From Pisaster brevispinus (lineage: Eukaryota > Echinodermata > Asteroidea > Forcipulatida > Asteriidae): a DNA stretch of 64,000 nt. A model generated the notes under the pieces. The model was not told the origin of the DNA and made no database searches. It saw only the letters and a program-made list of their open reading frames with translations. The first letter of the stretch is position 1, and the number at the start of each line of letters is the position of its first letter. Where the stretch lies: positions 12,739,676 through 12,803,675 of the forward strand of contig JAMKCF010000008.1 of the NCBI GenBank assembly GCA_023634235.1, read 5' to 3'. A program made the translations under genes and the position numbers. This document shows positions 30,888 through 54,660 of this stretch, piece by piece.

Positions 30888-31436
<549 letters not shown>

Positions 31437-32560
31437 ATTAATTGGTTATTTGGGAGACATTTCGCAGTTTGAAAAGGGGCAACAAGGAGACAATTTGTTT
31501 AAGGAGACATATAACTGTCTCCCTAATGTTTTGGGGGCTTGTAACTCAAAAACGGTACGAGAACTGGCCAATTTGAAGCGTTGAAATCCAAGGGGGTTTC
31601 CCCACTAGTAGTATGGATGAGTCCATTTTAATGAAAGGTCTACAGAAATGTTTTAAAAAAGCAGGGTGAAAAGTGGTCCGTTATATTTGTTGGTGTATTA
31701 GATAGACTATTGGGAGACATTGCAATTTATCCAGAAAACAACAACAAATGGGATTATATGTATAGTAAATTGAAACACATTTTAGAATTTTTACATTCTC
31801 CAAACATTGCTTGTAAAATTTGTTGACCAAAGTCGACATTTTTACTAAAACACCCTTTCCACCAGTAGTGGTACCACCCAAAAACGTTATGACTTTGTTG
31901 TATGGACTTTTCTCGTTCCAAGTTCTCGCTGGTCTCCCCAATGACTCGTCCATCACTTGTTAAGGGTACCAGTCAGTTAGTCTGGTATCTGCACCAACGA
32001 TCATGTTATCGAACGATACTGGCGTGTAGCACCTGCATATGTGTAACCATGCCGCCGCGCGACGCCATTTTAAGTCTCCGAATGTGTTGAAAAAATACTA
32101 CAACAAGTACACACATGATGCACAGCCACACGTCCACGTCCACGCGCACACGTGTGGTGAGGAAAGGGCATGAAGCTTGGGAGGCAGCGAACGTCATAAC
32201 TAACTGTCGCCGTAAGTGCATATATTTCACGTAAGTTAACCGAATAAAAACACTTTCAAACTATTTAATTGAATATTTTAACTTAGACTTAAACGTGTTT
32301 GTCTCTGTCATGTCTGTAGTTTCCTCCTAAAAAAAACACCTGATTACCATTTTTAAGAACAAAGCATCATGAATGAATGATACGATTACGAAGACTTTTG
32401 TAATCATGGTAATTGTTAGGCTTAAATTCATTAAAAAGTAACATAACAAAAATTAACAGTAACACGCGGCCAACGGTACCGGTGTAGGCCTAGTTCAGTA
32501 GTTCTACTACTAGTTGATTTTTCTTGTTCCTGCCTCAACTCAGCTCTTGCAACATTGAAC
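31437..32560. other. No gene recognised; GGGAGACA motifs
   Basis: Contains several (G)GGAGACA or TGTCTCC motifs (31450-31530, 31705) shared with introns of gene B. An ATG on the minus strand at 32085 (MASRGGMVTHMQ, then GTGCTA) could be a first exon but nothing follows it. Confidence 0.4.
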
Positions 32561-32713
32561 ATGGCAGGTCCTGCATATTCTGCCAACAGTATCAAAATAA
32601 AAGTGTTACAAAACTACATCAGACGCTTCCTTTTCATGATTATCTTCCTTTTCACTTGGGTAGTTTTTTTGACTGTGTTTGGAATTATTTTATGTGTTAA
32701 GTTGTTTTCATAA
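32561..32713 (+). CDS. Possible 50-residue membrane microprotein
   Basis: The ATG has a good context (AACATGG). The frame encodes a short polar start (MAGPAYSANSIKIK), a basic segment (NYIRRF), then about 26 hydrophobic residues (FMIIFLFTWVVFL...), ending in TAA. An AG acceptor-like site precedes at about 32542. The topology would be one transmembrane helix with a positive flank. No family recognised. An AT-rich random open frame could look similar, so this stays a weak call. Confidence 0.2.
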   Translation: MAGPAYSANSIKIKVLQNYIRRFLFMIIFLFTWVVFLTVFGIILCVKLFS

Positions 32714-32939
32714 ATTTTAAAGTAACACTACAAATTGATAGGCCTATCAAGATGGACATCAAGTTTGTGGCTTTATGTATATGGTGCCATTGGTGGTTGT
32801 ATGATTTATGGTAAGGCTTTATGTTACATTTTAAAAAAACATTAAGGTCTAACACTAAAGTTATAACCAGTAACTAAGGTCCTACAATAAATTGGACTGT
32901 TTTAACTATGAGTATGACTGAGATATGTTTGAAAATATG

Positions 32940-33600
32940 TCATGCATTCATCAATAATTCTGCTCTGGCTAGTTGCGATAATCGTAACCCTCCATCCTCC
33001 GGACAGTCAAGGACCGTAGGGTTACGAGACAACACCTGAACACTGGTGAAATCCGCTTGATCATCTAATTCCGACTCATATATGTCAGATGCGTGGCCGT
33101 GGTAAAGATATGTCAAATTTTTCCACTTTTCAAAATCATTAATAATAATATGCATATTCTAAGATCATGGATTTGATCTTTATTGTATGACAAATTAATC
33201 TAGAATACTTAAAACAACAAGAAAATATTTGGCAGAAAAAATCAAGAACAGCGACTGAACTATACGGGCGCCGTCTTACGCCGTCAGTCAGTCTTTGGTA
33301 GGTTTTTTCCACCAAATATTTTTTGATACTGGTTGAGTGTTCTAGATTAATTTTTCATGTATGAAAATCAAATCCATGTTCTTATAATGTGTATCATGAT
33401 TTTGGAAGTAGAAACATTTTACGAATCTGATCACGAGTCTGACAGAAATTGTTGGAATTAGACGATAACACAGATTTCACCAGTGTTGTCTTCGACTGTC
33501 AGGAGCAATCGTGTACAGATAGCCTAATGTTGAGGAAAAAATGATAAAAACATTTTTCAGATTCAATATGGTCTGTCAGAGCAAAGGTACATGACTAAGG
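32940..33600. repeat. Diverged inverted repeat with coding-like arms
   Basis: Left arm about 32940-33245 and right arm about 33295-33600 are inverted copies, visible in CATGGATTTGATCTT...CTAGAATA against TTCTAGATTAAT...AAATCCATG and in GATTTCACCAGTGTT on both. Each arm encodes a related acidic stretch (IYESELDD on minus, FYESDHESD on plus). The loop contains GGGCGCCGTCTTACGCCG. It may be a foldback transposon or two opposed gene fragments. Confidence 0.6.
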
Positions 33601-34274
33601 GCGTACATGTAGGTCATCCGTTGATCAATTGTTTCTGTTTACAGATAAATAGCCATCTTTAAAAAAGAAATCAAATAACAAATATTTGTAATGTTGAATT
33701 TATACGAAGTGTATGATAAACATACATGTAGGATGTGGATATTTTTTCTGCAAAGTTTACTTTGGCCTCCTCCCATGACTTTCTGTACCTAATTATAAGT
33801 TATGAGTATGAATATAAAAGAAATAGGGACTAATAATTCTTGTTAAATGTTGGCCTTTTTTTCTTTCTACCAGCAAAATGCAATTCATTAAGGTCTGTTT
33901 TAACAGCATTATCAGCATTCCATATTCAAGGGACTGGGATCTCCTATCCCTTGTCTTCACAGACACAGTAGAGGGATGGTTAATTACTCAAGACCACACT
34001 GAAACCAAGTTGCCTAATTTACAACAACCGCTAATCTGCCCTCCAATCTATTATTTTGAACTTCAGTAGTTTCTTGAGTGCGTTTCCAGCTCCAACTTTT
34101 CTTGCTCAACTTCTAAGCAAAATTCTTGCAAAATTCTAAGATGCAATATAACTTAGTAATCATCAAACTATTCTTGTGATCAGACTTTCGTCTCCTCCCA
34201 TGACTTGCTGTACCTAAGCCACATGTATGGTTTCACTCCTCCCATAATCATTATCTTTTGTTGTCTTCTTACAG
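33601..34274. other. Gene B 5' flank or first intron
   Basis: A short repeat, CCTCCCATGACTT(T/G)CTGTACCTAA, occurs at 33768 and 34195. No coding exon recognised. A promoter was not identified. Confidence 0.4.
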
Positions 34275-34311
34275 TTTGAATAGTAAACTTTCAAGCAGTT
34301 AGAATAGAATG
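34275..34311 (+). promoter_or_regulatory. 5' UTR exon of gene B ending in its start codon
   Basis: The acceptor TTCTTACAG precedes 34275, and the exon ends exactly at ATG before a GTAAGT donor. The ATG frame contains TAG six bases before AGA-ATG, which excludes coding from further upstream. Because this exon has its own acceptor, at least one non-coding exon and the promoter lie upstream; the candidate at 29542-29648 could be one. Confidence 0.7.
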
Positions 34312-37300
34312 GTAAGTTTAAGCTTTGAAAAAAGTAGTAATCAACTTATATGTTGGTCAACCAAATGTGTTTGGATGGTTGGAATTCCAATAACAGCGAT
34401 GAGAAATTTCAGACTTTTATTTATACTGAGACCTTTTTTAATGTATCTCTGCCTGATGAAAAAAACAAGCTATAATCTTTTCTTCAGATATGAGAATCAT
34501 GGTGATGGTTTGACTTCTCTAGCACTGGGGATATTATTCCAGAAGCTCATGCAGCCTGGTGCTACAAAAAGGAGGGAATGCCATGATTTCATCAGATCTC
34601 CTAAAATTTTGATCTGGTTTCAGACCTTTTGTTTACCAGTGACTCTCTGCAATAAATCCCTGCAATAAATTTATCCTATTTTTTAAACTTGCAGTCAAGA
34701 GTAACACGCAGCAAGACCTCTGCGAATGATGCCCTTGAAACTCTTGTTGCCTGTGACCCTCCACATGGGTTCATCGTTAAAGAGTCACAGGGCAAAGGTA
34801 ACTGCATCTGTTTTTTAAAATATTAAACAATTAAAGATGGATGTAACTTTCTGATTTTAGGACACGTCTGTTTTACATCATCCTGAGTCCATAAAAGGTG
34901 TACATTGAAGACTGACAATAGTATGCTCTTTAAACTGTTAAAATGGGGATTCAGATTATTAATGAACTTTGCTTTATAGATTATGCCATTTTAATTTGAC
35001 TGAAATATGAATCTTTTTAGTCGTGATTTGGCATGTACATGTACAATGTATACTAATTAAATGAGATTGGTTTGCTGGCATGTCTCCCCTAATGACTAGG
35101 GCAGATGTCTTAACCACTAGACCACCGAGCACGCCCTGTGGATAGTTTTAAATTGTTTGCGGTACCTGCTGCTAATAATACTGGATTTGAACTGGCCCCT
35201 CATCACCATGTGTGCTCAGTGGTGGTTAAAAAAATCTGCTCCAGCCATGTGGCAGTCGTGGGTTCAAATCCAGCAAGACTCCAAAGCACTGAGTATACAG
35301 TGCTCATCATACATCATTGTATGGCAAAACAAAATTAATATTCATTTCCCCTAATGCAAGTATTACATCTATTAAAATTGTTTGCGGTACCCACTGCTAA
35401 TAGTACTGGGTACTCTCATTCTCTTTTTATTGTTATTGTTATTTTTTTCAGGGGGGCTTGCCACCCACACTGCACATATTTTTTTGCATTCGATGATGCA
35501 CGCATTTCAGGCAAGAAAAGTTTTATACAAATACATGACCCAAATTTGACCCCTCCTAGTCCAAACCAGAAATTAAACTAATGAAATTATGTTAATATAA
35601 TGGCATCTACAGCCACCTTGATCAGGAGTTTTGATATGGTTTCTGTTTGTAAAAGTGTAGGGAAGTCTAGGCTTTATTGTTTTGTTGACTTAATCACATT
35701 TTAAAACTCCTGTTGCAAGCCGTTCCATTTCTATCAAAACTAAAACGCACAATTTGTTTTCCACAACGTGACATCTGTACTGGCACTGTGATTGCCAATA
35801 ACAAAATGACATGAAGTCTCCATAACATCATACATTTCTTGTTTTTCTTTTACACGGAACCCTCACTGGTTTTGTCATGCCGTGAACACCCCATTAGAAA
35901 ATCTGAGTTGGTGAACCCACTTGCCAGAGAGCAAGTGGGGCACAGGCGTAAATTTCGGAATCATCCCCCCGCCCCACTTACACCGATTATTGCCACTGAA
36001 GTGGGGTGCAACAAGCCTAATGCGAAAGCAAAAGCAAAAGCCTCCGACCACAAGTCCCCTCTAGGTGTGGAAATGTTAATGTTACCCATAAAAAAATGGT
36101 TCTGTCTGTCATGTCTGCTACACCACTGCTCTCCGGTATATGAAAGCATAAACGAGAAAATACAAACAAAATTCTAAGAAATTGGTGTTTCCCTCACAAG
36201 CACAAGCTGAGAAGCAATACAAAATGCAGCATTTCTGAAATAGTTTCCTCATGTTCGTTTTGATATGGGTGACTGGGGTCAATTATTCTAAGATAAGACA
36301 TTACTCAAATCATGGACTGAGAGACTTTCAAGATCCTGGTGTTCATACTTGATAATGGGTGAATACATTGTACAATCCTGCTGTTTCTTGCATTGATATG
36401 GGTGGCTGGGGTCAATTAGTCTGTAATAATGTGCGTTTTGTCATTTAGGAGACATTGCCAGTTGCTATGTGTAATGATTGGGGTGGACAAAATATACATT
36501 TAGGAGACATTGCCAATTGCTATGTGTAATGATTAGGGTGAACAAAATATACATTTAGGAGACATTGCCTTTGCTATGTGTAATGATTGGGGTGGACAAA
36601 GTATACATTTAGGAGACATTGCCAATTGCTATGTGTAATGATTAGGGTGGACAAAATATACATTTAGGAGACATTGCCAATTGCTATGTGTAATGATTAG
36701 GGTGAACAAAATATACATTTAGGAGACATTGCCAATTGCTATGTGTAATGATTGGGGTGGACAAAATATACATTTAGGAGACATTGCCAATTGCTATGTG
36801 TAATGATTGGGGTGGACAAAATATACATTTAGGAGACATTGCCCTTTGCTATGTGTAATGATTGGGGTGGACAAAATATACATTTAGGAGACATTGCCAA
36901 TTGCTATGTGTAATGATTAGGGTGGACAAAATATACATTTAGGAGACATTGCCAATTGCTATGTGTAATGATTGGGGTGGACAAAATATACATTTAGGAG
37001 ACATTGCCCTTTGCTATGTGTAATGATTGGGGTGAACAAAATATACATTTAGGAGACATTGCCAATTGCTATGTGTAATGATTGGGGTGGACAAAATATA
37101 CATTTAGGAGACATTGCCAATTGCTATGTGTAATGATTGGGGTGGACAAAATATACATTTAGGAGACATTGCCCATTGCTATGTGTAATGATTAAGGGTG
37201 GACAAAATATACATTTAGGAGACATTGCCAATTGCTATGTGTAATGATTGGGGTGGACAAAATATACATTTAGGAGACATTGCCAATTGCTATGTGTAAT

Positions 37301-40300
37301 GATTAGGGTGGACAACATATACATTTAGGAGACATTGCCAATTGCTATGTGTAATGATTGGGATGGACAAAATATACATTTAGGAGACATTGCCAATTGC
37401 TATGTGTAATGATTGGGGTGAACAAAATATACATTTAGGAGACATTGCCAATTGCTATGTGTAATGATTGGGGTGGACAAAATATACATTTAGGAGACAT
37501 TGCCAATTGCTATGTGTAATGATTGGGATGGACAAAATATACATTTAGGAGACATTGCCAATTGCTATGTGTAATGATTGGGATGGACAAAATGTACATT
37601 TAGGAGACATTGCCAAATGCTATGTGTAATGATTAGGGTGGACAAAATATACATTTAGGAGACATTGCCAATTGCTATGTGTAATGATTGGGATGGACAA
37701 AATATACATTTAGGAGACATTGCCAATTGCTATGTGTAATGATTAGGGTAGACATATATACATTTAGGAGACATTGTAAATTATTGGGCAAGTTTATTGC
37801 AGACAAAGGTTTATTTTGGAGACATTGCCAAGTGATGTGGTATGATTGTAGAAGAAGAAAAATGTACTTTTCCTGGTTGTGTGGGAGATCGATAGAAAAT
37901 ATGCTTCAATCTCCTGACATAGCGTTACTTCTGAAAATCTCCCTTTTTGTCAATTTATCATTAACATTTTATTTTTACTTGATTTAATCTCTTAATCAGC
38001 ACCTAAAAAACTTTCCCATTTGATGATACAATTGGCATTACCAGTGTCCAACACACATGTGCGTATAGTGTGAAACCAATTTGCATATTGGCTGATGGCA
38101 ACTTTCTTGCTTGTTTATACCTTTTACCAAGTTTTGCTTGACAAACCATTCAGTTTGGCAACACACAGATACAATAATTTACTCTGATTAGCATTTAAAC
38201 ACAGTATTTATCTGTTTTGTTCTTGTTTAATTCTTTCATACATCAAGGTTTAGGAGTGTTTGCGACTGTAACACATTTACCTGGACAACTACTTTATGTG
38301 TACGGTGGAGAGCTCATCACTAATTCAAAGGCTGAAAAACTTGAAAATGAAAAGGAAAGTGTCTTTAGATACTTTTTTTCATACAAAGGAGAGAAACTGT
38401 GGTATGTACTATTTTTAAAGTTAATGGACGCATTAATTCTACTTGTAATTTCCAATAAAAAACTAGAATAGAGTTGAGACCTCATTTGCACTTGTTATTG
38501 TCTTTTAGTTTTCTCTCTTTTGCTGACCTACATGCACAACATGTAAATAATAATATAAAGAAAGAGTACACAAAGAGTGCACTCTGTGTAAATGAATATA
38601 TTCGGAGATTTACCCCTGCAAATCTCCTGCAACAAGAAGTGCACACAAGACATTTACATGTAACTGAGACTGCACACAGATATACCATTTATACTCTATA
38701 TCACTAATCACTGGATCAGGAAAGACTCCTTATTTGCAATCGATATGTTTTTCTTAATATCATGGAACTTGAATCGCAATTTTCAATTTGATATTCACAT
38801 TGGATTGATAACTTTTATCTTAGCCTTCACTAATGGCGCTATGGAAATTTAGACCAAATTTTACTCTTAGCAGTCATACAAGCCAATACCACAGCAAGTT
38901 TAGATGAGGTCAACAACACCGCTTATTAGTAGCTTAGTACTTTTAAAATTGGCACAGTTCTTTTGAAAACTAGATTTCACTGTGCTGATTGGCACACATA
39001 AATATAAATTGTTGTTTTGTAGTTTTGACTGAACTGAATAGTAGTAGTAGTGCTGAATATCTAGGCAATTGTGCATTTTGGTGATAAGGGCATACAATTT
39101 GGCATAGATATAGAGAAAAGTATTATGAACAAATCTGGGTATTGGGCCAACACTGGAATGTATTTTGAAAAATAGAGGTAGTAAAACATGCAATGTCAGC
39201 CATTTTGAAATTTTTGAAAATTGCTGGTTATACTACAAGTTTTTTTTTTTAAGGAAAATTCTGTGGTGGCCAATTTAATATCCAGATTTGTTCATGATAC
39301 TATTCCCAAGATCTGTTCCAAGTTGTGTGCTTTTATTACCAAAATGCACAGTTGTTGTGGGATTTTTAGTTATGCCGCATTACTAGAAGTGGTTTGTAAC
39401 TTTAAAAAAAATATTGACCTTTTGATTAAAGTTATGGGTGCTCTCTCACTGTAACAGTTACGATGCCACAGAACCATCGCATTTGCGCTTTGGAAGACTT
39501 ACCAATCACGGAAGAGGCAGAGAACAAAATGCTCGTATGAAAGTATTGGATTTCAACAGAGTTCCGACCCTGTGTTTGTTTTCTGTAAAAAAGATCCAAA
39601 AGCATGAAGAAGTCTTGTTTGATTACGGAATCAAAAATTTACCCTGGCTTCATAACACAGGTAAATTATGGATTCAGTTTGACTTGTATCTTTGAGAAAG
39701 TAACATCAAAATCTCATCACAATATTAGAGGTGTTCCATGGTAGACTCACTCAATGTTTACATCTTAGTTATACTGGGTGACCCATTTCAGGGGCAATCT
39801 ACTACTTGGATTTTCTTGGGTAGTTTTCCTAAAATTTGTTTTCCTCACTCCCTAAATGAGTAAAGACATATCTTTGACTGTCAAAGTCTAAGCAGCATTA
39901 ACTGTGGTCACTGGCTGTAGCTTATGTATTTGGTCAGTTGTGGTAATTTTCCATATTTACAAAGAGGAAAGATTTGATACCATAAGGCCAATGTTAGTGG
40001 AGGAAAGTAACAAATGTTATAGACCAATCAAATTTTATTTCATGAGAGCAGATCATCTGAATATGTTTGTATTTTTTTCATCGTTAGACAGCAAATCTGG
40101 AGATGGTTCATCCTCCAACAGTTGTACTTCTATGAAGCCAGAAAATGTAAGTGTGTGTTTTCATCTGTTTTGAAATTACTTTGAGTACTTACATGCAGCT
40201 CAAATCAAAAACATCGTAAGCATAAATAATAACAGGACTTGAGGGAAAGTTGACTTTATGAAGTACATTGGGATTGCCTGTTGGAACAAGTTTTATGTAT

Positions 40301-43300
40301 TTAGTATTCAAAGTATTTAGTAAAGACCATTGAAAATTGCAACGGTTCAAGATATTTAATAGTTTTTGAAACTGATGAAGTGCAAATGATTTGCAAACAT
40401 TGGAAATTGTTTGTTTTGGTTATTTGCTAACTTGGGAATTTAGCCTAAAATAAAAAATAAAAAATTGTTATGTCCTTCATTTATCTAGACGTCTTTGACC
40501 AGTTCCCAATAGCACTTAACAAGCTTATGTTTACATGATCAGTGTGTTGACGCTACATGAGTGCATTTCTGGTTATTCTTTTACCCTTGACAGTCAGTTA
40601 CTGGAGAAACAATGGGAGCACATCATCAGCCTGATAATCTTCAAGAATTGGACACCAATGCTGATCAAACTGACCTAAGCAAGTTAATGTCCTGGGTTCA
40701 GCTTAATACAGGTTGGCTTCTGTTCTAAAAAATACAATGTGTACCTTACGCACGTATCATGTGTAATTATGAAGCCTAGGTAATCATTGTGTCATTTTCT
40801 TGCCATACCAAAGCGCTTCTGACATTATTACCCCTGGTCACTGGGCCATCTATTTCATTCCTTAAACCATCTCAGCTCCCTGGAAATTATACAGCCGGTG
40901 CTGCGAGTTACCGCGCTCCAAGCTAATCATTCACATAACCATCTCTGCCCTCACAGGTACCCATTTTACCCCTGGGTGGAGAGAAGCAATTATGGTTAAG
41001 TGTCTTGCTCAAGGACACAAGTGTCGCGACCGGGATTCAAACCCACATCCCGATGACTTAACCACCAGAACTTGAGACTGATGCTCTTATCCGCTCGGCC
41101 ACGACACATCATCAACACCCCACATTCCCTCATGTGAAAATGTATGCATTAATAGATACATGTAAATCTTCTACACTGGCTTGTAGTTTTGAAATATTCA
41201 ACATATGTAGATTTCCATTAGCTTTTTAGAGTGACTAATCCATGTGTAAAAAACAATTAAAAGCTCCTCCAATTTTACTCTTTGTATAATCTTGAAAGTT
41301 GAATGCTACTACACAATTCTTACTTAATGTTTGCTCTTGCAGTAAAACTTGATTGCTATGTCAAATTCACAGATAAACCCCTATCATGAAGGCTCTGAAT
41401 CTACCAACTGTGAAAATCTTATTTATACAGACTTGTATTTTTGTTCTGCAGAAAGCAGCTCCGACGAAAGATGTACAAATAGTCTTCCTTATTGTGCCAC
41501 GAGGCCTGATGACACTGTGAGTGTTTGTTGAAATTGTTAGAGCATGTACAAGATATTGCACGAATAAGCAGATTTTGAACTTTTCAATGAGCCTATGTCC
41601 CCGTCCATTTGATATTTCATATATTTTTCCCTTTTTATTTATTTGTTGTTTTTTTTTGGGGGGGGATTTCACATTTTTTTCAGTACACTAATTATTTGAC
41701 TGCAGATTTAAATGTATTACACAAATTTTGCTTCGAAAGCCTCAAAAGGGTATCTTGTGTAAATTACACGCGATCTGGTTGTACACGCACATGAATCTCG
41801 GTCCCCAGCTTCATGCACTTTTTTGTACACGTACAAGGTCAAGAAATTTGTTTATAAACAAAAATATTTGTGTTTTACTTTGGCAGATGAGTTGGGGCGA
41901 TACACAAATTGAAGCCAGCGCAAACATTAAAAATGAAGTTAACATCCAAGTACGTAGGCACGTGACTTGACTTTTCTTATGTGTGTGTTTGCATAGACAA
42001 TTATTCAGAATGATACACAGTAAACTTTTGCATACACATTTGGTTTACTTTACTCTTGGCAGTCAGACCAGCCTATACCACAACAAGATAAGGTCACCAG
42101 CCAAGTTCTTATCATTACACGATTATAATTAACAATTTAAATAGATGTAATACTTCCGTTGGGGGAAATGATGTGTGATAAGCACTGTATACTCAGTTTC
42201 GAGTCCTGCGGTAAAAACTTTCCACATTCAACTCGGGTGAGATTCGAACCCGCCATGCCTCCTGCATGAATAAAGCAGATGTCTTAACCACTAGACTACC
42301 GAGCATGCCCGGTGATTAGGGGTCAGTGTGAATCCTGTATTATTAGCAGCGGGTTCCGCAAACAATTTAAACAGATGTAATTCATTGTACATGTACTTGC
42401 ATCGGGGGAAATGAATATAAATTTTGTTTTACCCTACAGCGATGTGTGATAAGCACTGTATACTCAGTGCTTTTGAGTCCTGCAACTCGGGTGGGATTTG
42501 AACCCAGGACTCCCGCCCACTATTTATTTCCCCCGATGCAATTATTACATTTATCTAAATTGTTTGCGGTACCCGCTGCTAATAATACAGGATTCAAAGT
42601 GGCCCCTGATCACGAAGATGATGTATCAGGATCAGATAGCAGTGATAGTAAAGGCAGTCAATATAGCTCAGATGGCAGTGATGCAGAATCAGACACACAG
42701 TCCATTAATTTTTTTCGAGACATAATTAATATTTGGCGCATAAATGCCATATATGTTTTTACGTCTCCCAAAATGAGTGTTTTCTTTTATCGAAACAAAA
42801 CTATTAGTAAACAAGTTTGTTGCATAAAGGCCATGTATGTTTTTATGTCTCCCAAATGGTTGTTTTGTTTTATCCAGACATAACTTTTAGTAAACAATTT
42901 TTTTCGCATAAAGGCCATGTATGTTTTATGTCTCCCAAATGATATCGTTGTTTTTTTATCAACACATAATTAATATTTGACAAGTTTGTCGCATACTTGA
43001 TTTAAAAATTGTTTATCCAGACATTATTATTAAAACAAGTTTGTCTCCCAAAAGTCAGTTCCAACAAGTTCTTCAGTGTTTGCTTGTCTAATGCTTCAAC
43101 AGGAATATTACATGTACTCCATTTATTAGTTTTGTTTGTGGGGACTTAACGTGTTGGCGTGTTGTGATTTGTTTTTGCACTATGCCCTGGAGTAGAAGCT
43201 TAAAGTTTGATAATCTCTAGTTTGCTAGTGGTTTCTTTTTATTTAAGCGAAGTTTAGTTTTTCTCTCATAAGGCCTAAATAATGTTACACATACATTTAT

Positions 43301-46300
43301 GAAATGTATAAATAACTGCTGAGGCTTTCTTTTTTATTCCTTGCAGCAATTCAGGCCATACAAGGAGCCCAAGCTTGTGCAGGATAATCAGACTGCTCTT
43401 GCAGAGGTTTCTTTTTGTGGACTGAAATTGGTAAAATATTTATTTATTATTGATGTTTTAGACCTCTCTATTAGCTTTATAAAAAATAAAAATAAACATA
43501 AATCTTGAAAGTGTTACTCGACAAATGTAGTTAGATCTTTACCCAATAAGTTTGGCTCATGCATCAAAACCTTTGGGGCAAACCATTGTGTACTACTAAT
43601 CGTTCAATACAAAATACAAGAAAATAAATTGTATATTTAAATGAGCCTTAGGGAGACCACTGCACAGTGATACATTATAATGTGGCTATAGAAACATTGG
43701 CTACATCAACCTGCCTCCCAAACAGTGGTTTTTTATCAACACATAATTTATATTGTAAATTGTAATTTCAGAAAGGCACAATCTGTGGTAGCCTGGCAGA
43801 TATCAACTCAGACAAGAGCTTGCCCACCCTGAAACTTCCAGAGTCTGGCACCAAAGTCAACTCCGGTAGCCTGGCAGATATCAACTCAGACAAGAGCTTG
43901 CCCACCCTGAGACTTCCAGAGTCTGGCACCAAAGTCAACTCCGATAGCCTGGCAGATATCAACTCAGACAAGAGCTTGCCCACCCTGAGACTTCCAGAGT
44001 CTGGCACCAAAGTCAACTCAGGTAGCCTGGCAGATATCAACTCAGACAAGAGCTTGCCCACCCTGAGACTTCAAGAGTCTGGCACCAAAGTCAACTCAGG
44101 TAGCCTGGCAGATATCAACTCGGTTAAGAGCTTGCCCGACCTGAGACTCCCAGACTCGGGGAGCTTGGAAGATGTCAACTTAGACAAGAGCTTGTTGTCC
44201 AATTCCCATAGTCATGATGTGGTTTCAGAATCTGATGAATCAATTGATGAAGCAATTGAATCCGATGAAGATGTTGAATCTGATGTGGTGAGTGAATCTG
44301 ACGGCTTCATTCCTAGTTCAGATGACAGTGACATTGACAGCCAGTCGACTGTTTTTCCAGTGTTGAGTCGAAACCACATGTACAAGAAAGGTGCAGATGT
44401 CTTACCAGAGAGACGAGAAATGCCAGATGTAGTACCTTCACAAAAACCAGTATCCAAATATATAAAACCTGCTAGGATGTGCCCTTTTTGTAGGAAATAC
44501 ATGAAGGAAAAGCTTTCAAGGCATATCCAGACTGTTCATAAAAATATCAAGTGTGTCTCTAATGCCCTGAAACTGCCTAAGCCTGAAAGGGACACAGCCC
44601 TTGGTTTGTTAAGGAAAAAGGGAATTCTCGAAGCCAACAAGGAACAAATGAAAGCAACATGTCCTGTATATGAACGCGAAAGGAAAAGTGCTAACGAAAG
44701 CAAGCTGGTCATGTGTGGTATTTGCTCTGGCTTTTACTCAAAAGTTTGTTTTACCAAACACAAGAGCAGATGCCAGGGAGACTCGCATTCTTTCGCTTGC
44801 TCGATTCCGCTTTCCCTAATGGTGTCTAATGATGACATCACAGATGAGTTCAAAGCAGAGATACTCTGCAAATTCAGAGAAACTGAGGTAGGGGACCTTT
44901 GCAGGACAGATCCAGTCATCTTAACTCTGGGGAGACAGTTGTGGCGAAAAGGCCAGAATAAAAAAGACAAGGTTGTCGAAGTGAAGAAGACCGTGATGTC
45001 TGATATGAGAAGGCTTGCTTCATTGTATGTGATTTTCAAAGAACAGGAAACACATTCAGCTAATCTGGCAACCAACACAGCAGCAGACATGTTTACACGA
45101 GAAAACTTTGCGGTCCTAAGTGATGCTGTTCAAGCCTACACCACCCATGGAGAAACAACACAAATGAAGTGTGGCCTGAAGGCTGCATTGTACTACCTCC
45201 TCAAAAAAGTGTGTAAAGTCATAAAATCCACACATTTGATGGCAAACCGTGATGAAGCTGCTGCAGAGATAGATAGATTCAAAGCCGTCCTAGAGCTCAA
45301 CTACGAATTCCTGTTCGGTGACGCAGTCTACCATCTCAACAATCGCCGGCAGAAAAGTCTGCGTAAGCCAGTTCAGCTGCCGTTAGAAGATGATGTTGGG
45401 AAGTTACGGCAGCACACTATCGACAGAATCTCAGCAATGGTCACCGATGAGTATATGGTCTGGGACTCACACAGTTTTTTAACGCTTAGAGATCTGGCAG
45501 TGTCCCGTCTTACGATCTTTAATGCTCGGAGAGGGGGGGAACCATGTCGTTTGAAATTGCATGAGTGGATTGAGGCTGAGGAGAACGAATGGATTGACAA
45601 ACAGAGGGCAGAGAACATGCATGACCCAGTTGAGAAGCATCTACTGGATAAGCTTCGAGTGACTTTCCAAACTGGGAAAGGAAATAACCATTTGGTTCCT
45701 ATTTTGTTTCCTCCAGACACAGTAGGGGCTATGAAAATCCTGACTGACGCACAAGTAAGAGAAAGTGCTGGGGTCATGGCAGACAACAAGTATGTCTTCC
45801 CTTGTGTACATGGATCATGCACTCATGTTACTGGGTGGCAAGCACTTAAACAGGTCTGCAAAGATGCAGGAATTGAGTCAAGTCTGCTGACAGCCACAAA
45901 AAATCGTCACAGAGTGAGCACTCTGTACGCAGCGCTAGAGCTTCCAGAGCGAGATAGGGAGATGTTCTTTCGCCACATGGGTCATTCAAGTTCAATCAAT
46001 CATAATATTTACCAAGTGCCACCAGCGATTGCAGAGGTTCTACAGGTTGGACGACAGCTCATACAGATTGATGAAGGTACAAATGACAAAATGAAACTAG
46101 GGAAGAGACAGGATGAATTGTTTTAAATAGACCATGTGCCATTTGTTTACAGATTTGTGGCAATGTCACAATTTCTGCTCGGTAGAATGTGTGCACTTTC
46201 TATATTGAACGAATTTTCTGAAGGAGTGATGTAAATGATTCCATCACACAAAGCTGATGTGACCAGCGATGCCCCTCTTGAATAAAACCTATGCAAAAAA

Positions 46301-49300
46301 GCAGGATGCGTGCCCATACCCCCAAGCAAAACATGACTGTTTTGGGCACCTGATCTATACAGCCAATCTGTGAGCATTAAAATATTTTCCTATCTCTTCC
46401 CAGGCTTTATAAAGTAAATACTGGTTGTTGCGCTTAGTGACACAAACTTGTACCTGTAATAACAAATTTTTGTAAACAACTAGCTAATTTTGCCCTTTTC
46501 TTTGCATTTAGGCAAGCAAAGCACAGATTCCACTCCGACAGTACCTTCAGGTGTGTATACATGTCATCAAATTATTTGTATATTCCTTATTCCAAATTTT
46601 GTATCATTTCTCACATTCATCACTAGTACAATATGCATTGAACTCATTAGAAATATAATTGTTTCAATTCAGTGACAGTTGTAGCCTTTCCAAATTTGTT
46701 TTTCTTTTTTCAGCCAACGCCGTTTGTTTAAGTTTTTCAAACTGGTCTAGAGTGTTTAGAAATTAATTTAAAATAGTTTTAATCAAATGGGCTGAAAAGA
46801 AACAATTGAAAATTTAAAAAGCTCCCACTGACCATGCTGAATGGGAAAATTTATGTTTTTGATAAATGAGGTCAATGCATGTCTCAGTAGTGATTCAAGT
46901 GAAAAATGATATCTAAGGGAATTTACAGTTCATTTACATCGACTTTCAAGCTGATCTTGCCACTTAGTTAAAATAATACACTTCTTTTTTGTTTTGTTTA
47001 CAGCCAGCACATCATCCTCTGCTGACTCCACTCTGGAAGGACATTCAGGTGAGTACATGCCATGTACATGTATCTTTATTTCATTCCTTTTAAAAAACAA
47101 TTTATTCTCTGTGACCTACAGGTGCAATATGTATGACGTCATTTATATGAGATACAACATTTCCAATTCAAGTGGGAATGCTACCATGTCCATTTCTAGC
47201 TGAAATTCTCACTTTAAAGCATACTAGCAATGAACCCGTATAAAAGAGATGTTTAAGCAATCGTACACCTGTGGTAAAATTGGAAAACATTTATGCTCAC
47301 AGTTTTACAGATAACTTGCTTTAGAAGAAACCACCGATTTTGAAAATGATATCGGTCATATCCCAGTATTTTAAAAATGTATGCAATTTCTGATTTTTTA
47401 TTTTATTTTTCAAATATCGCACCTCCACGGTATCGTCATATTGGCCAGCGCAAATAGGAAATATTGCAAAGAAACATTTGGGGACATGAAATTGTCTCCG
47501 TAATGACAAGATACAATGCCACAGTTATTACTTCCATGAAACAATCAGACGTTGTTTATTGCATTCTGATTCTGCCAATAAATTAAAATGATACAACTGT
47601 TTTCTTTTGTTTTCAGGCAAGCAAAGAGTCGGCACAACATCCTCTGCAGAGTCAAGTCTAACAGGTCATTCAAGTGAGTACATAATAATCTTGTCCCCAG
47701 TTATCTTTCTATATTGACCTTAAAGGTGATATACAGCATTTGCAAACATTTCCAAGGATGGTTGGCCAACCATTGTGCATAAAAGGCCCACTATTTTAGT
47801 AATAGAGGCCTCAAATTTACATTTACATTTAGTAAGTCTACATTTCCTTTGTGCAATTGGCTACACATCGGTGAAAGAGTCTGGTTCCACGACCTGACAA
47901 TACCCTAATGTCTAAATGGCTGCTTCCTTTGCTTTATCTACGAACACAAACCTTAAACACATCAATATAACCAGGATATTCCATCCACTATGATGTAACA
48001 ATCATTGCTATAAAACACTATCCCAAAATCCATGCATCTTAAAATGACAGCAAAAGCAGATATTGTATTGATGTTGCGTGTGTTGTGCTATCACACACCT
48101 ACCCTGTGTTTTCCTCTGTCTCTACCTTGTTCATCTTCCCACATTACTCTCCCCCCCAAGTTTCTCCATCTTTCAAAGTTGTGTCAGACTCTCTTATAAT
48201 CCCTCTTTTGTCCCTTCCCTTACGTCTCCTAGCTGTAACGCATTTTCCCTTTGCTCCTCTATTCTTTATATTTTACTAACTCCTACATCACTGTGTACAA
48301 AATATGTGTTTTCCTATGTTGCTGTCATTTTGCCTTTGATAAAAAGTAGGGCCTTGTACTAATTTTGAGCATTTATACTATAATTATGGCTTAGTTGAAT
48401 AACCAGTTTGTAACAGTCAATTCACATGTCACAGGGTAATGTTGCCAATTTATACCTTTTCGTTTATTTTCAGGCAAGCAGAGAGCCAGCACATTATCCT
48501 CTGCAGACTCTACTCTGGCAGGATGTTCACGTGAGTATGCCATGTACATGGATTATTTTAACTACTAGTGCAGCATGTCTGACCTTATTTGTCGGAGTGG
48601 CTGTACAGCTATAATTCCAATTTGATTAATCATTGAAGGAATCACAGGATTTTGCTTACCGTTTAGCCTTGTGTGGTGGTTTAAGGCTCTAGAACCAAAT
48701 TGAAGGTTTGCAACCATTCGCTCATTTTTACCTTTTGACCTACTTTAGTTAGCTGTGTAATATTTTTGTTTTAATATTCAGATCTGGAATACATGTAAGT
48801 AATGAGTTCAAAATTATAGGAACAATACAGAGTATTTCTTTTTTTTAAGTTCATGTAATAGTTGATTGATGTTCTTGATTTATAATTCAAAAAGATTACA
48901 CATTCTGGTTTGAATGGGTCAAAAAAGTGGGGACATGATATACATGTGTATGGAAATTTTAGCAGTTTATATTTTGGGACAGTTTCAAACCTTCATGATT
49001 TGTGTCTTTGGGTCAGATCTGAACTAATTTGTGTTATCCCTTTTCACACATGAATGTGATTGTTAACAAACCCATAGTTCTGAGGAAACTGTATGATCTT
49101 TTGAATGTATTTGTCTGATTTGTCATTGGATATGTTTAGTTCTCTTGAAATTTGACAGCATTTTGGTTGTACGGCTAATTTCCAGGAATTGCTGTGGAGA
49201 ATGAACTTGCTTGACAAAAGGTGCATAAAAGACCTTTTAAAAAGAATAGCAGGCAACTCATAAATGGCAAGAATATGGTCACAATTTGTCGAGAATGCTT

Positions 49301-50763
49301 ATACTTAATAATACTTGTAATATTTTCTTATGTAGAAAAGAGGAAGAAGTATTTGTCATGGCCAAAAGCAGATGAAGAAAATGTACTGAAACATTTCAGT
49401 TCTATCATTGATGGAACTTCGAAACAGACCATTCCAAGTAAGTATAATAACATAGAATAAAGACATGCAAGAGCTTTCAAAAACCTGAAGCTATTAAACC
49501 AGTTTGCATCCATCTTAGATTGAATCCCATTGTCGGCTTATATCTTAGTATTCATCTTCAAACATCCAAGCACATGCCATTAGCTAGTCAAGATTGAGTC
49601 AAGTCAAGACTTGAAACTATAGTTTTATAAATTTATTTAACTCATGTGGACCTAAATTGATTTTTGTTCTGTTTTGGTCCGGGGCTTGGACCAAACTTGA
49701 CTTCAACACTGATGGTAACAAGATTTTCATGATGTGAGTGAATGTTTCATTCAATGAGGCGAAGCTGAGTTAAATGGAACATTCCATCTTTCTGCGACTG
49801 TAAATATTCTTTCCAATGCATGAATACAAACATATTCAATATTTGTTTTATGTGACAGATGTACAGTAAAATGAATCAAATTCAGGAGAAAAGTAAACCA
49901 ATTTTACCCACCATGGTCAATAGTTGGTACTGCCTTCGGTTGGCTTGGCTCGGCAATTGTAAGCAATCGCACGCGTGTTTGTGTGCAAACGCGCATGCAC
50001 AAGAAAAAGGCACCCTGGGCTTGCAGGGGCAGAGTGTAATTGGATGATCCTAACTGTTGAACTGGTACTATTTATACCTTTCCCATGGTTGAAAAATATA
50101 CAAATAGAGTGGAATGGGAGGAATATTACCGCGTGGTAAAACTTCCCCTCTTGAAATGGAACAGTCCAAATTTTACCAGGCAATAATATTCCTCCCATTC
50201 CACGAATTAGAGCCACCCAATATTTGTTTTATATAACTGACACACTGGCATGAGCCTTTCCAATGCCATTTTGCTGTGCGTGCCAAGCATGTACATACAT
50301 GCACATGCAAGTCTGACTTTTGGTTGCTCAATAGTGACTGGATTGGTCAAGAACCTGACTGTTGAATGGAAAATGCTATTCCCATGGGCAAATAGGACCT
50401 TTGGATTGCCAATGAGGGTGGGAGTAATAATGAATATCACATGATGTAAAGTTCCACCAATCAAATGACAAGGATCTGTATGTCAGTTATATAATACTTT
50501 TTGGGAGAAATGTGATGTGAGTTCTACCTATTAAATGTAATTTCTGTATGTCATTTATATTTAAAAAACATTGATATATTTATCCATATCTTACATGTAT
50601 GTGCCCAGGAAAACATCAAGTTGAGGAAATCCTGAGAACTGTCAAGTTCATGAAAATCTACAGATGGGAAGATGTGAGGACCAAGGTCATGAATGAAAGG
50701 GCAAAACGTCAGAGACTTATCACAAAGAGAATGAAAGAAATGACGAATCCAACTAGTGAGTAG
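34309..50763 (+). CDS. Gene B: SET methyltransferase-tyrosine recombinase fusion
   Basis: Exons: 34309-34311 (ATG only), 34695-34797, 38248-38401, 39458-39660, 40088-40146, 40594-40711, 41452-41516, 41887-41949, 43347-43430, 43772-46076, 46512-46550, 47004-47048, 47617-47673, 48474-48530, 49336-49437, 50609-50763 (TAG). The lengths sum to 3612 nt, 1203 codons plus stop, and every junction is GT-AG and phase-consistent. An extra exon at 42063-42092 is possible. Domains: KMT5A-like SET about 27-154; Ser/acidic linker to 284; 26-residue repeats 285-424; zinc motifs at about 521-542 and 599-618; tyrosine recombinase with RRGGEP at 870-875, NRHR at 995-998, GHSS at 1021-1024 and Tyr 1031; Ser/Thr microexon linker; SANT-like tail about 1119-1190. 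The start is supported by an in-frame TAG nine bases upstream of ATG. No disabling change seen. Predicted nuclear, DNA-binding, with lysine methylation and strand-transfer potential (inference). Confidence 0.8.
34695..39660 (+). CDS. Gene B SET-domain exons (KMT5A-like)
   Basis: Three exons encode the SET domain. 34695-34797 ends GFIVKESQGK and splits a Gly codon; 38248-38401 begins GLGVFATV and has YVYGGELI; 39458-39660 begins by completing a Cys codon (KL-C-YDATEPS) and holds GRLTNH, NARMKV, PTLCLF, EEVLFDYG and LPWLH. These match, in order, the G-x-G, Y-x-G, R-x-x-NH and E-x-L-x-DYG motifs of PR-Set7/KMT5A, the H4K20 monomethyltransferase family. The NHS Ser is Gly here. No pre-SET or post-SET cysteines are seen, as in KMT5A. 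The intron between the first two exons is 3.4 kb and holds the 55-bp minisatellite. Confidence 0.88.
35080..35400. mobile_element. tRNA-like SINE fragments in gene B intron 2
   Basis: Near 35210-35275 the plus strand has GTGGTGGTTA (A-box-like) and GTGGGTTCAAATCC (B box). Shared tails such as AATTGTTTGCGGTACC(C/T)(G/A)CTGCTAAT occur at 35150, 35378 and 42560, and the inverted form at 42335. TGTCTTAACCACTAGACCACCGAGCA near 35106 recurs at 42275. These are copies of one SINE family in more than one orientation. Confidence 0.65.
36445..37785. repeat. 55-bp minisatellite, about 24 copies
   Basis: Units contain ACATTTAGGAGACATTGCC, then TTGCTATGTGTAATGATT and a variable GG(G/A)GT/AT-GGACAAAATAT part. 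Copies are nearly identical; variants are single-base (G/A in GATTGGGG or GATTAGGG) or CCAATTG/CCCTTTG. The array sits inside the intron that separates the two halves of the gene B SET domain. Confidence 0.97.
40088..43430 (+). CDS. Gene B linker exons between SET and zinc/YR parts
   Basis: Six short exons: 40088-40146, 40594-40711, 41452-41516, 41887-41949, optionally 42063-42092, and 43347-43430. They encode a polar, Ser/Asp/Glu/Gln-rich, probably disordered linker. Splice sites are canonical apart from GTTGGC after 40711 and a poor GTCACC after 42092. A further acidic Ser/Asp stretch lies open at about 42612-42700 (EDDVSGSDSSDSKG...), joined to a SINE tail; it has no donor and may be a remnant or unused exon. 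Confidence 0.7.
40830..41107 (-). mobile_element. tRNA-derived SINE, near full length
   Basis: On the minus strand: GTGTCGTGGCCGAGCGGATA (A box of a Ser/Leu-type tRNA), GTGGGTTTGAATCCCGGTCG (B box), then a conserved tail with CCTTGAGCAAGACACTTAACC, CTCCACCCAGGGGT and GGGTACCTGTGAGGGCAGAG. This body is known to me as a widespread deuterostome/metazoan SINE tail. It lies in a gene B intron, opposite to the gene. Confidence 0.8.
42120..42612. mobile_element. Inverted pair of SINE copies
   Basis: A minus-strand copy (AATCCTGTATTATTAGCAGCGG at 42330, with B box GGTTCGAATCTCACCC and A box GTCTAGTGGTTAAGAC as read on the minus strand) faces a plus-strand copy of the tail (CCGCTGCTAATAATACAGGATTC near 42580). 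Both contain GATGTGTGATAAGCACTGTATACTCAGT (42170 and 42442). The pair could fold into a hairpin in the gene B pre-mRNA. Confidence 0.7.
42760..43060. repeat. Diverged tandem repeat with TGTCTCCCAAA
   Basis: Three to four units of about 80-90 bp with ATGTTTTTATGTCTCCCAAA and GCATAAAGGCCATGTATG, at about 42740, 42820, 42900 and 43000. TGTCTCCCAAA is the complement of the GGGAGACA motif found elsewhere in the window. Confidence 0.7.
43772..46076 (+). CDS. Gene B large exon: repeats, zinc motifs, tyrosine recombinase
   Basis: An uninterrupted 768-codon exon. It starts after TTTCAG at 43771 and has a donor at 46077 (GATGAAG|GTACAA); if that donor is skipped, a TAA at 46124 ends a shorter isoform. 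Order: 26-residue repeats, acidic Ser/Asp/Glu zone, C2H2-like finger (CPFCRKYM...HIQTVH), a second Cys-rich motif (CGICSGF...HKSRC), a helical DNA-binding region, then the YR catalytic core. Catalytic candidates: Arg in NARRGGEP, Arg in KNRHRVST, GHSS and Tyr in HNIYQVP. The last resembles the GHS...FYRLP motif of multicopy animal Crypton-like recombinases. The zinc motifs before the core also fit that family. Confidence 0.88.
43788..44190 (+). repeat. In-frame 78-bp coding minisatellite
   Basis: About five units of 26 codons (GSLADINSDKSLPTLRLPES, then GTKVNS); the first four are nearly identical and the last one or two degenerate (SVKSLPDLRLPDSGSLEDVN). The length is a multiple of three, so copy-number change keeps the frame. 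It lies between the linker and the zinc motifs. Confidence 0.95.
46512..48530 (+). CDS. Gene B repeated Ser/Thr microexons
   Basis: Four short exons, 46512-46550 (39 nt), 47004-47048 (45), 47617-47673 (57) and 48474-48530 (57), all symmetric phase 1-1. They encode variants of GKQ-(R)AST-SSADSTL-GHS. Each can be skipped without changing frame. Flanks also look related (a TTTTCAG acceptor and GTGAGTA(C/T) donor in the last three). They link the YR core to the C-terminal domain. Confidence 0.8.
49336..50763 (+). CDS. Gene B C-terminal SANT-like exons
   Basis: 49336-49437 reads KRKKYLSWPKADEENVLKHF then SSIIDGTSKQTIPS; 50609-50763 reads HQVEEILRTVKFM, YRWEDVRTKVMNERAKRQRL and ends TSE-TAG. The Trp, helix spacing and basic end fit a Myb/SANT-like domain and resemble the C-terminal domain I remember in the animal Crypton-like recombinase family. 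The junction is phase 1 and canonical. Near the stop the exon holds AGTGAGTAG, which also looks like a donor; whether a further exon exists is open. Confidence 0.75.
50107..50203. repeat. Inverted repeat, 97 bp
   Basis: GTGGAATGGGAGGAATATTA and CGTGGTAAAA on the left pair with TTTTACCAGG and AATATTCCTCCCATTCCAC on the right. It lies in the last intron of gene B and is probably a foldback MITE. Confidence 0.8.
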
Positions 50764-51217
50764 GTCCTGTTACTTGGTGTCTAATGCTGGACATGAAGTT
50801 ATTCATTGCATTAGAATGGTCGTGCTGGCCCATGTAAATTAAAAAAAGGATCAGAGTTCTGGAATTTCGAAAATTTCAAGTTTAGATTTAGAGGACCAAT
50901 CACTCTGAAAATCTGAACTGTGAAAAAGCTGTGAAGTAACTACTTTGTCCTTCAAAAAAGTGGATTTTTTGTGTTTTCACAGTGACAAGCAATCATTATC
51001 ACCTAAACACTTTCATTTGTTATGCATACCGTGAAAATTTCCTGAAATAACATGGGTAGTTTCACATTTATTTCAGGTGATTTTCACAGTATGCTTTATA
51101 AAAGAAAACTTTCACAGAATATCAAGAGCTCGTTTCCCTGAAAGCAACATGAAAACAAAGGTAATCATTTTATATATAGAGCAAAGAGGCAACTTCACCG
51201 CCTTTTCAAGTTGGAGA
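50764..51217. other. Gene B 3' flank
   Basis: AT-rich, no exon recognised. No clear polyadenylation signal was found close to the stop. Confidence 0.4.
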
Positions 51218-53828
51218 TTTTAGAGTTTTGGAATTTCAGAATTTCAAGTTTGGATTGAGATGAACCGTGTTATTGTTATTCAAATTGTTGTTAAAATTAT
51301 TTCTTGATCAAGATAATGTTAAATGTTAGACATTGATTCGACTTTGATCTTTTTTCCAGTTCTGAGATATTAGCCCTGTAGTATTGCTGTGTGTTAAAAA
51401 GAATCCAAAGGTCTAGGATTATTCCACTAACTAAAAGTTTCAGAATTTTGCCCTTAAAATCTCAGACTGCATAAATTTCCAATGCGACAATAGGTTTTTC
51501 TGTCAGTTGTCTTAATTGACTGTCATTGCATTCAAGCAATCATGTCAGACTTGATGTCCATTTGTGGACAAGTTTTAGGTTAATATCTGGTTTGAAGTAC
51601 ATGTAGTTCATTACAGCAGAATGTTACTGCTGGTCCATAAAGGGGAAATCAGAGAATTAGAGTTTCACATTTGAGATGGCCACAGTTTATTAAAAAAAAA
51701 TTCAACAATTACTGTTGAAGCATTGTATTAAATGATGGACATAGGTCCATTGTAAAATATTTCAAATAAGAACCACAAATTTCTTGCCACACGCAGCATG
51801 CAGTATTATTTTACTGAAATGTTTTATTGAAGTTCATGAAATGCAGGATCATTTTTATTTGTATGCATTGCCATTAATGTAATATTTATGTTTGGTTAAA
51901 GCAGCTCTAAAAATTGTGTAATTAATATTTTTTTTATATTTCTAGTGCAATGTCTCCTGTATCTGATTATTTGTCTCCAGGGTATGCATGGATTATGTAT
52001 TAGCCTACCAATTGTGTGCACATTTATTATACTCAACAAAAAGGAGAGACCTATTTTGACACTGTTCATCTGCCTGTATGAACACAAACCAGATTCAAAA
52101 GGATTATAATTTTTATTTTGTAACTGTTTGTTTTTCATATTTCTTTATTTCTTTTTAATATGAAATAAGCCAGCCCTGGTGTCTCAACCAACATATACAG
52201 CACTTGCTCTTGAAATGGTGGAAGTGCCATTATTGTTCTTTGGACTTCAGTATGGTTAAGAAATTTGTGCAATCAAGTTATTGCAGTTAGGAAAAACATT
52301 CATGTTTCTTTTTCTTCTAAGATTTCAATTATTGGACAGGTTTAAGGTTGATGATCCAAGTTTTAAAAAAAACAATCAGAGTTTTAGAATTTTGGAATTT
52401 CAAGTTTAGATTGAGATGACCCATGTTATTGTTCTTCAAATTGTTGTTAAAAAGATTTCTTAAAGGAACTATACACTTTTGGTAAAGTGTTTGCAAATCT
52501 AATCATACTTAGCAAGAATCATGAGATATAAGAAAACTTCAACCTGCGAAAGTTGCAGCTCATCATAATTCTGTTTACGAGAAAATAGTAGAAGTGCATT
52601 CTGCATTTTTGTATTTATTCCAACGGAAGCATTGTTATCTTGTGCGATCAAAACTAATTGTTCTACTCATTTCTAAACAAAAAATATAGCATTTTAGGGA
52701 ACGGCATTTCAAGGGAAGATTACCACCATGACCGTCTGTGTACCATGTCTATTGTGAGTAAATCTGTAAACGTTTACGTTTTACATCTTACCAATAGTAG
52801 GGGCTTTATAAAAGCAAGATACATATAATGTTAGATGTTATATATCGTTGGACTTTGAGCTTTTTCCAATTCTAAGATATAAGCCTTGTAGTATTGCTGT
52901 GTGTTGAAACATATCCAAAGGTCTAAGATTATTCCACTAACTGAACGTCTTAGTAATTTGCCCTTAAAATCTCAGACTGCATTAATTTCCATTGCGACAA
53001 TAGGTTTTTCTGTCAGTTGTCTTAATTGACTGTCATTGCATTCAAGCAATCATGTCAGACTTGATGTCCATTTGTGGACAAGTTTTAGGTTAATATCTGG
53101 TTTGAAGTACATGTAGTTCATTACAGCAGAATGTTACTGCTGGTCCATAAAGGGGAAATCAGAGATTTAGAGTTTCACATTTGAGATGGCCACAGTTTAT
53201 TAAAAAAAAAATCAACAATTACTGTTGAAGCATTGTATTAAATGATGGACATAGGTCCATTGTAAAATATTTCAAATAAGAACCACAAATTTCTTGCCAC
53301 ACGCAGCATGCAGTATTATTTTACTGAAATGTTTTATTGAAGTTCATGAAATGCAGGATCATTTTTATTTGTATGCATTGCCATTAATGTAATATTTATG
53401 TTTGGTTAAAGCAGCTCTAAAAATTGTGTAATTAATATTGTTTTTATATTTCTAGTGCAATGTCTCCTGTATCTGATTATTTGTCTCCAGGGTATGCATG
53501 GATTATGTATTAGCCTACCATTTGTGTGCACATTTATTATACTCAACAAAAAGGAGAGACCTATTTTGACACTGGTCATCTGCCTGTATGAACACAAACC
53601 AGATTCAAAAGGAATATAATTTTTATTTTGTAACTGTTTGTTTTTCATATTTCTTTATTTCTTTTTAATATGAAATAAGCCAGCCCTGGTGTCTCAACCA
53701 ACATATACAGCACTTGCTCTTGAAATGGTGGAAGTGCCATTATTGTTCTCTGGACTTCAGTATGGTTAAGAAATTTGTGTAATAAAGTTGTTGGAGTTAG
53801 GAAAAACATTCATGTTTCTTTTTCTTGT
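51218..53828. repeat. Tandem duplication, about 1.1 kb per copy
   Basis: Copy 1 is about 51218-52318 and copy 2 about 52379-53828. Starts: AGAGTTTTGGAATTTC and AGAGTTTTAGAATTTT. From 51357/52867 onward the offset is constant at 1510 bp with high identity through CATGTTTCTTTTTCTT. Copy 2 is longer because of the insert at about 52458-52815. Matching open frames of 80 codons on the minus strand (52138-51896 and 53648-53406) are not credible genes. Confidence 0.92.
52458..52815. mobile_element. Repeat element inserted in duplicate copy 2
   Basis: About 350 bp present in copy 2 and absent from copy 1. It begins AAAGGAACTATACACTTTTGG and ends near GGGCTTTATAAAAGC. Text such as GCGAAAGTTGCAGCTCAT and TTTACGAGAAAATAGTAG resembles a dispersed repeat I associate with echinoderm genomes. 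Exact ends and target duplication are blurred. Confidence 0.7.
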
Positions 53829-54540: not shown

Positions 54541-54551
54541 TGCAATTTTCG

Positions 54552-54638
<87 letters not shown>

Positions 54639-54660
54639 ATATATATTATTATTATTATAT
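54541..54660. repeat. (TTA)n microsatellite
   Basis: About 85 bp of uninterrupted TTA, then TATATA-type sequence, directly before the truncated Penelope-like element. Open frames of Tyr or Ile here are artefacts. Confidence 0.95.

Follow-up and report, generated by a model that had tools for sequence, protein, structure and literature searches.

The window analyzed here is the whole 64,000-nucleotide stretch C8:12739676-12803675 of the Pisaster brevispinus genome (549.7 Mb in 512 contigs). It holds, at 34309-50763, an intron-rich gene in which a KMT5A-like SET domain precedes a putative tyrosine recombinase (YR), and this gene lies within a unit of ~23.1 kb that recurs elsewhere in the genome with shared ends at TTA-type sequence.

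The gene and its domains

Manual exon reconstruction from the sequence recovered the single gene proposed by the sequence-only reading, with 16 exons, 1203 codons plus a stop, and 15 of 15 introns bounded by GT...AG in compatible phases throughout. Protein matches in group B, a related lineage of the same genome, follow the same order over exons 2-4, 6, 10, 15, and 16. Exon 1 of the model, an ATG alone, is provisional and may be wrong. An in-frame stop at 46126 provides an alternative form of 1068 residues, which ends past the YR and lacks the tail. Two further features named earlier held up: the pair of zinc motifs in exon 10 is nearly invariant in a 21-member alignment (A1), and the conserved C-terminal tail of exons 15-16 has a counterpart in group B, and for the exon 15 portion in group C as well, and aligns in 8 of 25 database relatives, these having been chosen by the tail pattern. 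Exon 10 begins with a 26-residue protein repeat of the SLADINSDKSLPTLRLPESGTKVNSG type (43790-44180; five copies, the fifth divergent, plus a partial sixth); a GCV_H Pfam match falling on these N-terminal repeats was taken as spurious.

The KMT5A-like character of the SET domain was borne out. Pfam recognized SET in the open frame holding exon 4 (2.2e-6) and, below cut-off, in that holding exon 3 (0.03). A PDB search with the joined SET gave 19 distinct sequences at E<=1e-3; the top 14 were all KMT5A/SETD8/SET8 (4.4e-15 to 8.3e-14). The domain is thus closest to KMT5A (SET8/PR-Set7), with S-adenosylmethionine-binding and catalytic motifs present: it keeps GKG, the Tyr in the VYGG/EYHG strand, GRLxNH, and DYG, NH being replaced by ND in relatives P0006, P0013, and P0024. 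It differs from KMT5A in sitting within a putative mobile element and, in the window lineage, in one residue of the LFDYG motif. The substitution Y334F shifts SET8 towards dimethylation. The window-lineage Phe in LFDYG aligns with the Phe of 3F9W, a chain that a PMC3529403 table gives as Y334F; the remaining KMT5A chains shown carry Tyr there. Since groups B and C also have Tyr at this position, Phe is not general to the SET domains of these elements. A protein search with the SET region gave no match at E<=1e-3 among 130 candidates, which says little because the known SET+YR relatives escaped it as well.

Evidence for the recombinase comes from profiles. The window protein has no integrase match in Pfam or PHROG. 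Apart from the window protein, A1 has 20 members, one of which (P0013) reaches PF00589 below cut-off (0.0013). P0013 also matches two PHROG integrase families at ~1e-3; P0001 and P0024, like the window protein, match none of the PHROG integrase families. PDB searches with the YR exon or A1 returned no recombinase. In a profile-profile comparison (hhalign), a 27-row family alignment matched lambda Int, XerC, XerD, FimB, and FimE with a score of 35.3 (E 4.5e-4), 20 column shuffles reaching at most 20.6 and a SET profile 18.1. The Lys, Arg-His, Gly-His, and Tyr fall in register, whereas the aligned stretch does not include the first Arg. Three residues of A1 (Arg586, Arg587, and Lys636) show no variation, and conservation reaches 90% or more at Thr709, Arg712, His738, and Tyr747. 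The YR assignment, which rests on a weak profile similarity, is putative.

Database searches, in which only the ~8,000 candidates with most shared words were scored, yielded 25 relatives, 20 from one search and 5 from another. Ten hits of the former search carry an organism's name, nine of them from echinoderms and one from a tunicate. As the sequence-only reading had supposed, unnamed relatives exist elsewhere: sea urchin, tunicate, and mussel gene models predict single proteins carrying both SET and YR. Fish SET-YR proteins, and the fish and cnidarian predictions mentioned in that reading, are further candidate relatives. The mussel protein P0024 (Mytilus galloprovincialis; predicted 2302 residues) combines fn3, SET, an Ulp1-type peptidase, a zinc motif, YR, and the tail. 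P0025, related to P0024, has Ulp1 and YR, and P0018 (Amphiura filiformis) has an N-terminal BRCT domain where SET would be.

These proteins bear on whether SET and YR are instead encoded by two adjacent genes of one element, as separate proteins, or are joined by a prediction artefact. The joined gene is a predicted model, SET and YR lie 4.1 kb apart in the window, and among linker exons 5-9 only exon 6 has a group B match. The exons are nevertheless phase compatible throughout, the linker exon 6 is conserved in group B, and both domains occur in single proteins of sea urchin, tunicate, and mussel, themselves predicted models too. We consider a split into two genes unlikely. Chance origin of the model is very unlikely, because intact copies exist and SET is paired with YR at 30 of 46 loci (see below).

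The element, its ends, and its copies

The whole window was aligned with three other genome regions, keeping pieces of at least 300 bases. The aligned unit spans window positions 31357-54666 in the match to C1 and 31333-54614 in the match to C4; outside it, only repeat matches and one 383-base match were obtained. C1 carries two head-to-tail copies with a TTA-type junction, 99.8% identical to the window copy (25 mismatches and a few gaps over 23.1 kb for each) and separated from each other by 6 mismatches. For most of its length, the C4 copy is 97-99% identical. All of these copies, including that of the window, sit at TTA-type sites with differing flanks. In both C1 copies, every exon and splice site and the reading frame are preserved, each with one amino-acid difference from the window. 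The C4 copy encodes 1199 residues, without internal stop where aligned and with the splice sites seen there kept, the alignment leaving uncovered the first 15 bases of exon 10 and its acceptor. The copy at C1:6.8M is degraded: it lacks exons, and its pieces, once joined, contain 69 stops. Because the copies examined have retained their introns (with every splice site preserved in the window and C1 copies, and those seen in C4), the element moves through a DNA rather than an RNA intermediate, and retrotransposition was rejected.

The left-end pattern was found at five places for group A (four exact; C363 with 3 mismatches) and at seven for group B, while read-backwards control patterns were found at none. 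Group B, whose YR is 63-66% identical to that of the window, has the same type of ends, with (TTA)25 at a tandem junction and similar ends at TTA-type sequence on C11, C1, and C13. At C13 and C4, a short TTA run adjoins the left end; thus, a long microsatellite is not needed at the target. TTA repeats flank the window, C1, and C4 copies on both sides; they may be tied to recombination or stem from a pre-existing microsatellite.

A candidate recognition motif emerged from 7-mer enrichment in the element versus its flanks, computed for words with at least 8 copies and with the intron 2 array and one copy of a 3' duplication excluded. The top-enriched word, GGAGACA, occurs 16 times in 21 kb of element versus twice in 40 kb of flanks, and TTGGGAG ranks second. 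GGAGACA lies in inverted orientation near both ends and recurs 25 times in the intron 2 array. In group B, 52 copies were counted in the 28 kb fetched, which span parts of two tandem copies, and a related array lies ahead of SET exon 3. The direct duplication of ~1 kb (51314-52316 and 52825-53826) is located in the 3' part of the element; its copies are ~96% identical when each is compared with the position that the other occupies in the C1 copies.

The SET+YR gene is the only gene recognized in the element among the frames scanned, nine other open frames of 92-170 residues inside it having no Pfam match above cut-off. A viral origin was also considered and rejected: in one scan of viral contigs, A1 produced 9 pattern matches, and tblastn identified no relative among them.

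Features of the window, with positions counted from its first letter
Feature	Coordinates	Strand	Basis
Left flank, (TTA)33 repeat	31333..31431	.	TTA-type sequence beside other left ends too
Putative mobile element, ~23.1 kb, (TTA)n/TCACTATTAATTGG to TGCAATTTTCGG/(TTA)n	31432..54552	+	boundaries of C1, C4 copies
Exon 1 of model, ATG only (uncertain)	34309..34311	+	exon reconstruction
Exon 2, flank N-terminal to SET	34695..34797	+	exon reconstruction, group B protein match
Intron 2 tandem array, AGGAGACATTG in 25 copies, unit length 55 bp	36442..37776	+	sequence; related array in group B
Exon 3, SET N-half (GLGVFA, VYGGEL)	38248..38401	+	exon reconstruction, Pfam, PDB match
Exon 4, SET C-half (GRLTNH, EEVLFDYG)	39458..39660	+	exon reconstruction, Pfam, PDB match
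Exon 5, linker	40088..40146	+	exon reconstruction
Exon 6, linker, group B match 52% amino acids	40594..40711	+	exon reconstruction, group B comparison
Exon 7, linker	41452..41516	+	exon reconstruction
Exon 8, linker	41887..41949	+	exon reconstruction
Exon 9, linker	43347..43430	+	exon reconstruction
Exon 10, repeats, C2H2 and C2HC zinc-type motifs (conserved), putative YR	43772..46076	+	reconstruction, A1, profile comparison
Exon 11, Ser/Thr-rich linker	46512..46550	+	exon reconstruction
Exon 12, repeat exon	47004..47048	+	exon reconstruction
Exon 13, repeat exon	47617..47673	+	exon reconstruction
Exon 14, repeat exon	48474..48530	+	exon reconstruction
Exon 15, conserved C-terminal tail, first half	49336..49437	+	reconstruction, group B, relatives
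Exon 16, conserved C-terminal tail and stop	50609..50763	+	reconstruction, group B, relatives
Right flank, (TTA)28 repeat	54553..54636	.	sequence inspection

SET-YR pairing and selection

A count of genomic copies, suggested by the sequence-only reading as a check, supports a multi-copy family. The YR exon search gave at least 59 matches, merged within 3 kb to at least 46 loci, which are lower bounds because 57 of 201 candidates were scored; the 76 matches of the SET exon search likewise reduced to 46 loci when those within 6 kb were merged. With pairing defined as a SET exon up to 25 kb upstream of YR on the same strand, SET accompanied YR at 30 of the 46 YR loci found. Where YR identity to the window was at least 61%, pairing reached 24 of 27 loci (the misses being C363, C410, and C429), with SET-YR gaps of 3.3-7.7 kb at paired loci other than the window; below 55% identity it dropped to 6 of 19, including one pair at a distance of 18.4 kb. 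Another 16 SET loci have no YR found downstream and may be remnants, other elements, or host KMT5A. A second, partial YR-exon match (C11:8941474-8941641; 12474-12641 of that stretch) lies downstream of the group C YR.

Selection on the two domains was compared by Nei-Gojobori counts over SET exons 3-4 (113-116 codons) and YR (537-546 codons), expressed as ratios of nonsynonymous to synonymous proportions (pN/pS) with bootstrap ranges. Window versus group B gave 0.25 (0.17-0.35) for SET and 0.24 (0.21-0.28) for YR; window versus group C, 0.39 (0.28-0.52) and 0.31 (0.27-0.35); and group B versus group C, 0.35 (0.25-0.48) and 0.28 (0.24-0.32). These ratios are rough: synonymous sites approach saturation, and locating exons through protein similarity favors conserved stretches. 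Judged by these codon counts, the ratios speak strongly against a freely drifting SET, and the SET exons of the three lineages are under purifying selection, with constraint nearly equal to that on YR.

Interpretation and comparison with known systems

We interpret the locus, with a probability of about 80%, as a large, recently mobile Crypton-like YR DNA transposon that carries a SET8-type methyltransferase in one intron-rich gene. The gene fills a unit present in many copies that have the same ends, occupy TTA-type targets, stand nearly identical at unrelated places, and form tandem arrays; it is therefore the mobile element's own gene, and the element apparently travels with a chromatin writer of its own. 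On the same grounds of copy number, ends, and sites, the genome-defence system imagined by the sequence-only reading was rejected. The chromatin-coupled recombination it also envisaged remains, given the fusion and the selection test, a reasonable reading of a predicted activity.

Several observations weigh against this interpretation. The similarity to YRs is weak (hhalign probability 33%), and the HxxR box has Thr as its first residue in place of His, next to conserved Arg, Lys, Arg, GH, and Tyr. SET was called in 4 of the 25 database relatives, namely two sea urchin and one Styela protein by Pfam and one from Mytilus by a precomputed Pfam entry. A SET profile that included these four found none beyond them among the 25, and the low share may partly reflect incomplete predictions. 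No SET was found at 16 of 46 YR loci, 13 of them below 55% identity, and in comparisons with group C the SET ratio lies somewhat above that of YR. GGAGACA is rare in group C (7 copies in 15 kb), and the single 15-kb stretch that represents this group shows neither ends nor a (TTA)6 or longer run. Flanks are shared between C440 and C1:20.3M and between C1:29.0M and C11:8.8M, so that these pairs are probably not independent insertions.

The sequence-only reading had alternatively proposed a domesticated gene, i.e., a KMT5A-like gene that captured a Crypton-type recombinase and was retained by the host as in SETMAR. The intact frame, many introns, and purifying selection would suit such a history, and SETMAR offers a precedent for a SET-transposase fusion (PMC9062482, in the part cited). 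Domestication is nonetheless very improbable given multiple near-identical copies with defined ends and differing flanks at unrelated TTA-type sites, tandem arrays, and the coexistence of three lineages. That a non-mobile locus was multiplied passively, by segmental or satellite duplication, as the tandem and nearly identical C1 pair (6 mismatches) and the flanks common to C1:29.0M and C11:8.8M would suggest, is hardly credible, since the same ends occur in TTA-type sequence at unrelated C8, C1, and C4 sites and similar group B ends do so on C11, C1, and C13.

For a mobile element with a fused methyltransferase, the following mechanism can be envisaged. The zinc motifs would recognize TTGGGAGACA both near the element's ends and within the intron array, and YR would cut the element out as a circle and reinsert it at TTA repeats via its Tyr. 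DNA-level movement, TTA-type sites, and tandem insertion fit the Crypton-style circle integration outlined in the cited part of PMC3212892. The tethered SET might methylate a lysine, most likely H4K20, on element or target chromatin, and this mark could aid excision, copying, or integration, or give the element control of its own expression; alternatively, SET might serve in choosing target chromatin. A role in replication licensing seems doubtful. Zinc motifs seated on the TTGGGAGACA array of intron 2 would place SET to lay H4K20 methylation, origin factors would be recruited, and the element or its circle would be copied before or after YR moves it, which, if true, would bring a copy-number gain to a cut-and-paste recombinase. 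Tethered PR-Set7 promotes pre-replication complexes in mammalian cells, as stated in the cited part of PMC10968542; contrary to licensing, the cited part of PMC5009726 reports that altered H4K20 methylation left origin use unchanged in Drosophila.

Cryptons are the closest known system. Circle integration has been proposed for them, and the fungal ones carry short direct repeats at their ends (PMC3212892, in the part cited). With CryptonA of animals and CryptonS, some of which have a C48 peptidase protein, the element would share the YR and a presumed circular intermediate, as far as these groups are described there, and its flanking TTA repeats may correspond to the short direct repeats of the fungal elements. 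It differs in its 23-kb size, 16 exons, SET, and conserved C-terminal tail. For animal Cryptons, the same part of PMC3212892 records no C-terminal domain and no terminal repeats found, and the conserved tail of exons 15-16 departs from this description of CryptonA. DUF3504, the CryptonA YR, was not among the three Pfam families of the window protein at E<=10, provided that the library still holds the model; for the 20 relatives, 25 of 41 families were among the matches listed. SETMAR/Metnase likewise joins SET to a DNA-recombining enzyme of transposon origin, as a lysine methyltransferase with the Hsmar1 transposase, and is described in the cited part of PMC9062482 as a single intact copy of the primate lineage, whereas the fusion here involves a putative YR within a multi-copy element. 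The fungal Starships are large mobile elements also classified as YR (PMC12134995, in the part cited); compared by description, ours is an animal element with one gene recognized and no cargo genes in the frames scanned. Among the matches listed in the open-access literature, titles and abstract starts name no SET-YR element.

If our interpretation is true, an animal transposon encodes its recombinase as a fusion with a KMT5A-type histone methyltransferase, which selection maintains. This would provide a testable case of a mobile element that writes chromatin marks and is not merely subject to them. Such an element may also explain SET-containing gene models without names in sea urchin, tunicate, and mussel databases.

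Two neighboring features complete the window. A microsatellite, (CAT)n - (CATCAG)n - (CAG)n, at 30901-31331 abuts the TTA repeat on the left. A frame at 54473-55993 (+) crosses the right end and has an RVT_1 match below cut-off (5.2e-5; residues 85-170), which begins at ~54725, beyond the element; with a stretch that we take to be GIY-YIG-like, this part of the frame is Penelope-like and lies outside the element.

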